Shown piece by piece: positions 36,156 to 37,400 of a DNA stretch of 42,204 nucleotides. The stretch is from assembly GCA_018240695.1 (NCBI GenBank), contig JAFEFH010000012.1, positions 1 to 42,204 of the forward strand, given 5' to 3'. The position numbers were made by a program, and so were the translations under genes. The notes under the pieces are model-generated. The model did not search any database and was not told the DNA's origin. It worked only from the letters and a program-made list of their open reading frames with translations. The DNA comes from Pseudomonadota bacterium. Lineage in GTDB: Bacteria; Pseudomonadota; Alphaproteobacteria; Reyranellales; Reyranellaceae. The stretch's first letter is position 1. The number at the start of each line of letters is the position of its first letter.

Positions 36156-36218
36156 GGTGCGACGGCAGTGAGGAATGCCAGATAGTCGTTAGTGTGAGCT
36201 GCATATCAAACGCATTAG

Positions 36219-36246
36219 TTGACCGCGCAGCAACCATTGGTAAGTA
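36219..36246 (+). promoter_or_regulatory. candidate promoter of the AT-rich island
   Basis: TTGACC (36219-36224) and TAAGTA (36241-36246) are spaced 16 bases apart, 36 bases before the small-protein start at 36282. The surroundings (36156-36281) are otherwise without features. Confidence 0.4.
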
Positions 36247-36281
36247 TGGAATTGAGAGCAATTAGCGGGGGTAAGGCAAAG

Positions 36282-36479
36282 ATGTCTGCAACAAAGAAGC
36301 AAAAGCCTAAGCGATTCAGGGCTGCGCGCACGGACGCATCCATTGGCAGTATTGTTCGTCGAATTGCGAAAGATCTAAAGTTACCGCCAAAATCAATTCA
36401 GTTTGTATTGCCTAACGGTAGCCGCGCGCATCGTGACGGCAAGATCAGCAACTTGCTGAGAAAATGGCGTACAGCATAA
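36282..36479 (+). CDS. small basic hypothetical protein, ubiquitin-like sequence pattern
   Basis: The 65-residue protein (MSATKKQKPKRFRAARTDAS...) has a Lys/Arg-rich N-terminus, then SIGSIVRRIAKDLKLPPKS, IQFVLPNGS and RDGKISNLLRKW. The order helix, LPP turn, strand, NG turn, DGKIS matches the ubiquitin-like beta-grasp pattern by eye; no terminal Gly-Gly is present. ATG 36282 follows GGGGGTAAGG; ATG 36246 would add 12 residues. The region is much less GC-rich than flanking genes. It lies 40 bases before the next gene and is likely cotranscribed. Function unknown. Confidence 0.68.
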   Translation: MSATKKQKPKRFRAARTDASIGSIVRRIAKDLKLPPKSIQFVLPNGSRAHRDGKISNLLRKWRTA

Positions 36480-36519
36480 CATGAACGTGGTCTCTCTTCT
36501 TTTTGAGGCCCGTTAAGTC

Positions 36520-37254
36520 GTGAGGCCAGCATTCAGCGAGCGTACGTTCGAATTCTGCTTTAATGCGGAGTTTTGTAGAAAGTTTTCAGGCCGACTTGCA
36601 AGTCATCCGCAGATTCCTTCCCAGAAAATGGAGAAGGATCTTGGATACGACGTCGAATTTGAGATTCAAGCAGGGCGCTTTACTGGGTCAATTTTCTTTC
36701 AGCACAAAGTCGCAAGCTTTGCTGAGCACCGAGTTGGAACTAATGCGCATTTCTTTGATGCGCATGGCGGTTCTTACTACCGGTTTGGCGTAGACAATCC
36801 GCAGCACAACGTTCTGCAAGATCTTAGCCTAACAAAAGGTAACGCATTTTATTGTGCGCCAGCGTTCCACAAGCGAGATGACCTGAGTACTTATTTTTTT
36901 GCAGACCGAGTCGGAAACTATTCGGTTTTGCTAGATCCGGCAGATGTGGGTGCCATACAAGACAATGCTCGGCATAACGTTTCATACGTGCAAGGTGGTG
37001 CAGCCTTTTTGCATTCGGAACAGCGTCGATTCGAAAAGAGTGTTAGCGCAAGCCGCGAAAAGCCGCCTGAGTTTCGTAGGCAAAAGATCAATGAAGACTA
37101 CGTGATCCGACTGAAAGATGAACTCATTAGGAAAACCCCAGAAAGGCGTGTCAGACGAGCAATTTCGGCGGGCGTCGACGCTCTTCGCCCCTTGGAACAA
37201 GTTCAACTGGTTCTCGCGCGTGTCTATGATGTTTCTTGGATATTGATCGAATAG
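36520..37254 (+). CDS. hypothetical protein with possible D...QxK nuclease-like motif
   Basis: The 244-residue protein starts at a GTG (MRPAFSERTFEFCFNAEF). Residues 34-64 read as PSQKMEKDLGYDVEFEI, then a short loop and GSIFFQHKV. The pattern E38, D44, then Q61-x-K63 at the end of a beta strand resembles the core of Mrr-like members of the PD-(D/E)XK superfamily. The rest has YYRFGVDNPQHNVLQDL, YCAPAFHKRDDLSTYFF and a charged C-terminus. It differs clearly from its neighbours in GC content and codon use, suggesting acquisition by transfer. The nuclease reading is inference only. Confidence 0.7.
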   Translation: MRPAFSERTFEFCFNAEFCRKFSGRLASHPQIPSQKMEKDLGYDVEFEIQAGRFTGSIFFQHKVASFAEHRVGTNAHFFDAHGGSYYRFGVDNPQHNVLQDLSLTKGNAFYCAPAFHKRDDLSTYFFADRVGNYSVLLDPADVGAIQDNARHNVSYVQGGAAFLHSEQRRFEKSVSASREKPPEFRRQKINEDYVIRLKDELIRKTPERRVRRAISAGVDALRPLEQVQLVLARVYDVSWILIE

Positions 37255-37400
37255 TCGGCGGTAGTCGGTGCGAATCTGGGCGACTCGCGCGCTCTTGTCG
37301 ACTGGCCTTACTGCCGTCCTTTCGACCTGGCAGCTAAGCTTGACGGTCTACTTACGCTCTAGAGCTTGCACGTCGTCGCGCTCTGTGGCCCCCTGCCGGC

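Follow-up and report, generated by a model that had tools for sequence, protein, structure and literature searches.

Nucleases with a D...(E/Q)-x-K active site are known from prokaryotic defense. For the Mrr catalytic domain the motif is given as (D/E)..(D/E/Q)xK (PMC3874153), and such domains are also termed PD-QXK (PMC11037411). The catalytic residues are D50, E67, and K69 in Cap4 and D45, Q58, and K60 in AbpA, in which the substitution Q58A or K60A leads to loss of phage defense (PMC10732053). Another group, the putative nucleases of COG4636, has been proposed to consist of selfish elements (PMC551604). The window described here, i.e., the whole stretch of 42,204 nucleotides that was analyzed from a contig of an alphaproteobacterium of the family Reyranellaceae, carries an AT-rich island with a gene whose product has a D...Q-x-K arrangement of residues. 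The island gene is read as encoding a stand-alone, mobile QxK-type PD-(D/E)XK nuclease of an undescribed family, most likely serving as a one-gene defense, with a probability of roughly 0.6.

An AT-rich insertion at a variable site

Between two genes assigned by Pfam as luciferase-like and GNAT, the GC content fell to 48.2% (positions 36156 to 37255 of the window), compared with a mean of 68.1% (standard deviation, 2.1; minimum, 62.7%) in 1,100-nucleotide segments of the remainder of the contig. GC3 was 0.45 to 0.47 in both ORFs of the island and 0.86 to 0.93 in four neighboring genes (luciferase-like, GNAT, UbiD-like, and MatE-like, the last two named by eye). These values bear out the low GC content and the odd codon use of two ORFs on which the original prediction was based. 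In a genome of the same genus (G037), only 12 bases separate the luciferase-like gene from the GNAT-side sequence, with nothing between them, and the window therefore carries an insertion of approximately 1.2 kb; the relative lacking the island with which the insertion point was to be compared thus exists. Based on the GC profile and this nearly empty site, the AT-rich insertion between the luciferase-like monooxygenase gene and the GNAT gene (not assigned to a strand) was placed at positions 36156 to 37366, with a right edge that is uncertain and lies somewhere within positions 37320 to 37366. The left edge proposed earlier, 36156, was retained, while the proposed right edge, 37260, was not, the insertion being slightly longer. 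The DNA from position 36156 to approximately 37366 is inserted DNA of foreign composition.

Luciferase-like and GNAT genes were separated by about 200 bases in genome G028 and by about 1.1 kb of other DNA, not AT-rich, in genome G001, so this spot is variable among relatives. The gap type of about 200 bases among the same-genus sequences (L043, L044, and L045) contains inverted repeats. In the window, a 13-nucleotide inverted repeat with 12 of 13 positions matching was found, with a left arm near the left island edge (positions 36161 to 36173, forward strand) and a right arm at positions 37306 to 37318 (reverse strand), for which an end role was considered. Equal scores were reached in 38 of 1,000 shuffles, which makes the repeat weak evidence, and the window's genome held no other exact copy of it; a transposon with terminal inverted repeats was rejected for these two reasons. 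An integron cassette was likewise set aside after a simple attC pattern scan, which is crude, returned none at the island or at homolog locus L053.

An uncatalogued protein family with invariant residues

The larger ORF of the island (positions 36520 to 37254, forward strand) is predicted to encode a nuclease-like protein of 244 amino acids from a GTG at position 36520, a start consistent with the starts of its homologs. The protein had no match in Pfam, NCBIfam, PADLOC, or PHROGs, and PADLOC comparison of 18 family members returned a single stray match to GajA (E value, 0.034). Close homologs, with 42 to 55% identity over the full length, were found in Halomonas, Burkholderia, Billgrantia, Halobacillus, a deltaproteobacterial metagenome-assembled genome (MAG), a Rhodoferax MAG, and a Lysobacterales MAG. 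More distant homologs were found on plasmids of Cupriavidus, Pseudosulfitobacter, Sulfitobacter, Sinorhizobium, Agrobacterium, and the archaeon Halolamina, as well as in further genomes, such that the range of the family includes Pseudomonadota, Bacillota, and plasmids, one of them haloarchaeal. The 244-amino-acid protein is a member of a real, uncatalogued family.

This family is rare, patchy, and scattered. With the query genome counted in each case, members were present in 4 of 398 genomes of the phylum, in 2 of 349 genomes of the family to which the Burkholderia record belongs, and in 3 of 250 genomes of the family to which the Billgrantia record belongs; in one search of relatives, only G013 and G022 were accepted as clear, and weaker rows were not counted. 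The family gene was AT-richer than its own flanks at 19 of 20 loci. A phage or prophage origin was rejected, as no relative was found among 50,697 phage records or in eight scans of IMG/VR with various family members.

In an alignment of 18 family sequences, the invariant columns were P33, E38, D44, Q61, K63, Q95, and H152, with one row (L023) badly aligned near D44. A 19-sequence alignment made with different settings, from which L023 was dropped and to which L053 and L054 were added, had P30, P33, E38, G42, D44, Q61, K63, Q95, and H152 as invariant columns. The original prediction had singled out E38, D44, and Q61-x-K63 and would have been abandoned if the D and QxK residues varied among homologs; all four occur at the named positions, and the D and QxK residues were invariant in both alignments. 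The invariance of E38, D44, Q61, and K63 held down to 17% identity. The chance that four randomly drawn residues would all fall among the nine invariant ones is approximately 9e-7, a value that ignores type-dependent conservation. The spacing from D to Q was 17 residues in the near clade and 10 to 15 residues, mostly 13, in the distant clade. The motif of the PD-(D/E)XK superfamily, an invariant Asp followed by (D/E/Q)-x-Lys, is thus present in its Q-x-Lys form with a spacing of 10 to 17, and the spacings of 17 and 13 equal those of Cap4 and AbpA, respectively, as calculated from the published residues (PMC10732053).

Profile and structure comparisons

Comparison of the family profile with Mrr_cat proteins taken from relatives gave an alignment confined to a single short segment, where D44 and Q61-x-K63 paired with the D and QxK of Mrr. 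Scores ranged from 15.8 to 20.1 (E values, 0.018 to 0.069), and 1 of 240 column shuffles scored as high; a first hhalign run with insertions kept gave E values of 0.05 to 0.34, and hhalign probabilities against Mrr were below 3%. This profile alignment supports a putative homology with Mrr_cat without proving it. Pfam searches of the 18 members at an E value of ≤0.1 returned neither Mrr_cat (PF04471) nor Mrr_N (PF14338), and matches to PF14130, SAVED, and HamA were likewise absent from these 18 members. DUF4365 (PF14280) was rejected, as it had no Pfam match and the region aligned by hhalign was short and did not include the QxK (E value, 0.35 or worse). Searches of solved structures by sequence returned chance matches only.

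AlphaFold2 models built with eight sequences were of low confidence, with a mean pLDDT of 43.4 for the full-length protein and 56.8 for residues 1 to 172 of the L003 homolog (other four models, 33 to 36). In both models, D44 was at or beside the start of a strand and Q61 ended the next strand, followed by a helix with Q95, and the order of predicted elements fits a PD-(D/E)XK core at the low confidence of these models (mean pLDDT, 43 and 57). Foldseek returned no match at an E value of 0.001 for either model; rows for the N-terminal model were mainly phosphotransferases and kinases (E value, 0.68 or worse; TM-scores mostly about 0.2). The highest Z scores given by VIA for the N-terminal model (4.1 at most) belonged to stretches of AMPK alpha at approximately residues 403 to 567, which we take to fall outside its catalytic domain, a SAD kinase fragment, and kinetochore subunits. 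With the full-length model, VIA ranked highest a docking domain aligned to the C-terminal helices (Z score, 5.3), and TnsA, PaqCI, MspJI, and Cap4 had Z scores of 2.2 to 2.6 (Cap4, 2.2). A viral structure library gave no significant match. The folds listed by Foldseek and VIA were at noise level, and no fold was taken from them.

Genomic neighborhoods of the homologs

The surroundings of the homologs are rich in defense genes. At least 9 of 82 proteins flanking 20 homologs had PADLOC matches at an E value of ≤1e-20, compared to 0 of 93 proteins in 20 random regions (Fisher test, P = 0.00085), in a comparison in which the random regions came from five of the homolog genomes and form a small control, several PADLOC matches share a locus, and doubtful ORFs were removed by hand from both sets (from 128 to 82 in the flanks and from 118 to 93 in the controls). 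The nine matches included two type I methyltransferases, two Old proteins, and one each of type IIG, PifA, SduA, PDC-S19, and PrrC. By locus, neighbors included an OLD-like ATPase downstream of the family gene (L004), PDC-S19 with DUF3644 (L007), Shedu SduA (L053), a type I methyltransferase and an AAA_13 protein (L054), a type IIG enzyme, an Mrr-like protein, and PifA (L056), and an HsdM-like protein recognized by eye (L003). Neighbors varied by locus, and no constant partner gene was seen among methyltransferases, ATPases, antitoxins, cyclases, helicases, or recombinases.

Several of these loci had further features. A compact defense island was observed at L056:4511-12077, where genes for the type IIG enzyme, the family member, the Mrr-like protein, and the PifA-like protein stand in a row near integrase-like genes. 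At L024:6138-8684, an OLD-like ATPase gene (identified by eye) ends 19 bases 5' of the nuclease-like gene; the OLD-like gene precedes the family gene in L024 and follows it in L004, which may represent a recurring, nonconstant pairing. A short recombinase-like ORF, resembling a fragment of an integron integrase by eye, is followed at L053:3896-8669 by several AT-rich genes on one strand, Shedu, and the family member, with no attC pattern found there. At L055:4041-5246, near the homolog, a protein of 402 amino acids bears the motif IFEHK; it, too, may belong to the PD-(D/E)XK type.

Proposed function and alternatives

The insertion, the family, its invariant residues, and its defense-rich surroundings were demonstrated, whereas the fold, nuclease activity, defense function, and recognition mode of the 244-amino-acid protein are inferred. 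As the family is uncatalogued and nuclease-like and its genes frequently have antivirus genes as neighbors, we regard it as a candidate new defense formed by a single gene. In the proposed mechanism, D44 and Q61 of the N-terminal domain (approximately residues 1 to 170) would bind a divalent metal with the assistance of E38, and K63 would act in the cleavage of a phosphodiester bond, with DNA as the most likely substrate. The C-terminal part, which is variable from approximately residue 170, would supply recognition. Since neither a methyltransferase nor an ATPase nor an antitoxin was seen as a constant partner, the protein probably recognizes some property of incoming DNA unaided, as type IV (Mrr-like) restriction enzymes do. 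Such direct recognition in a type IV mode is our tentative first choice of mode; a modified-base reader domain was not recognized in the family. It is also possible, at less than even odds, that the family constitutes a hitherto undescribed immune system of one gene, i.e., a compact QxK nuclease family of bacteria and a haloarchaeal plasmid that recognizes and cuts incoming DNA unaided and moves by itself in the form of an AT-rich insertion.

Second to the type IV mode, and rather less likely, is that the same nuclease fold acts as an abortive-infection effector resembling AbpA or Cap4, which would be inactive before a signal made by a phage or DNA damage triggers it and would then cut DNA broadly. 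The catalytic spacing is the same as in Cap4 and AbpA, and the eleven best Foldseek rows for the full-length model were Cap4 chains, but with E values of 0.11 to 0.35 and TM-scores of ≤0.20, which are not significant. Moreover, Cap4 and AbpA act together with a cyclase or helicase partner, whereas no constant one was seen for the family.

It is unlikely that the protein, whether of a PD-(D/E)XK-like or another fold, is not a nuclease and that its invariant residues do something else. H152 and Q95 show the same invariance as the residues of the proposed active site, and neither the predicted models nor the fold searches confirmed a fold; however, the order and spacing of the motif and the predicted strands fit a nuclease core, and the Mrr profile aligns in catalytic register.

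A nuclease serving the mobility of its own DNA, as a selfish or transposition-linked element with defense genes nearby since mobile islands gather both, is improbable. Foreign composition throughout, neighboring genes for TniB, TniQ, and a Mu-type transposase (L025) or for insertion-sequence transposases (L027), and the selfish role proposed for COG4636 are consistent with it, but the family gene was single-copy in the window's genome and in each of seven homolog genomes, with no proliferation, and lacked a constant recombinase, and the inverted repeat of the island is weak and has no other exact genomic copy.

The smaller ORF of the island (positions 36282 to 36479, forward strand) would encode 65 amino acids from an ATG or 86 from a TTG at position 36219. 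Its domain, which has no Pfam match, contains two similar half-motifs, R-x-D-A-x-V-G-S-I and R-A-D-A-x-I-x-x-L, in several copies. Elsewhere, the domain forms the C-terminal tail of larger proteins, such as those on a Vibrio ponticus plasmid (L030:5001-5156), with SIR2 and AAA genes close by, and in genomes G383 and G290 (L120:7067-7885 and L121:7406-8101), where, judged by eye, the adjoining genes encode a DUF262-like protein and a type III methyltransferase-like protein. A weaker, stand-alone match of 76 amino acids was found in genome G223, and the recorded sites of the domain include L122:1570-1800. Both the small ORF and the nuclease-like gene look like defense-island genes. Control or targeting of the nuclease-like protein by the small ORF, as parts of a two-gene system, is the least probable alternative: the two ORFs lie on one strand, 40 bases apart, and the company of the domain elsewhere would suit such a role, but the domain was absent within 2.5 kb upstream and 3.5 kb downstream of 17 homologs and was present in 1 of 143 relatives searched, namely, the window's own genome. 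Because the domain is missing around these 17 homologs, the two ORFs of the island are probably associated by chance or only locally. The two-gene or toxin-antitoxin form put forward in the original prediction was accordingly given up, no other constant partner being seen; the foreign insertion and the four residues that it had named are upheld, and the flanks of the homologs are rich in defense genes.

Comparison with known systems

If the stand-alone nuclease is an active one-gene defense, an uncatalogued family would be added to the known bacterial immune repertoire, in the form of a small nuclease that is easy to test and in which the recognition of foreign DNA would have to reside on the same chain. 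Since the models of PADLOC (2023 version), Pfam, and NCBIfam miss the family, surveys built on them would overlook it. The short invariant set P33, E38, D44, Q61, K63, Q95, and H152 makes the catalytic hypothesis testable by point mutants.

The family resembles Mrr (Mrr_cat, PF04471; type IV) in its D...Q-x-K motif, alignment in catalytic register, defense context, and lack of need for a methyltransferase, and it differs from Mrr in having no Mrr_cat or Mrr_N Pfam match, a nuclease-like domain at the N terminus, and the additional invariant residues Q95 and H152. With the double-stranded DNA endonuclease domain of Cap4 and AbpA (PF14130) it shares the N-terminal position and the spacing (17 + 2 in Cap4 and 13 + 2 in AbpA), and with AbpA also a Q in place of E. 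Unlike these proteins, family members have a total length of approximately 240 to 300 amino acids, lack PF14130, SAVED, and HamA matches, and were seen with no cyclase or helicase partner. The family was not filed under Mrr or Cap4 because the Pfam profiles of both fail to match. Some members of DUF4365 (PF14280) also have a D...Q-x-K pattern. Like the COG4636 putative nucleases (PMC551604), the family consists of horizontally moving solo genes of PD-(D/E)XK type; in COG4636, however, the lysine of the active site has changed its position and copies multiply, whereas the present family has a conventional QxK and one copy per genome.
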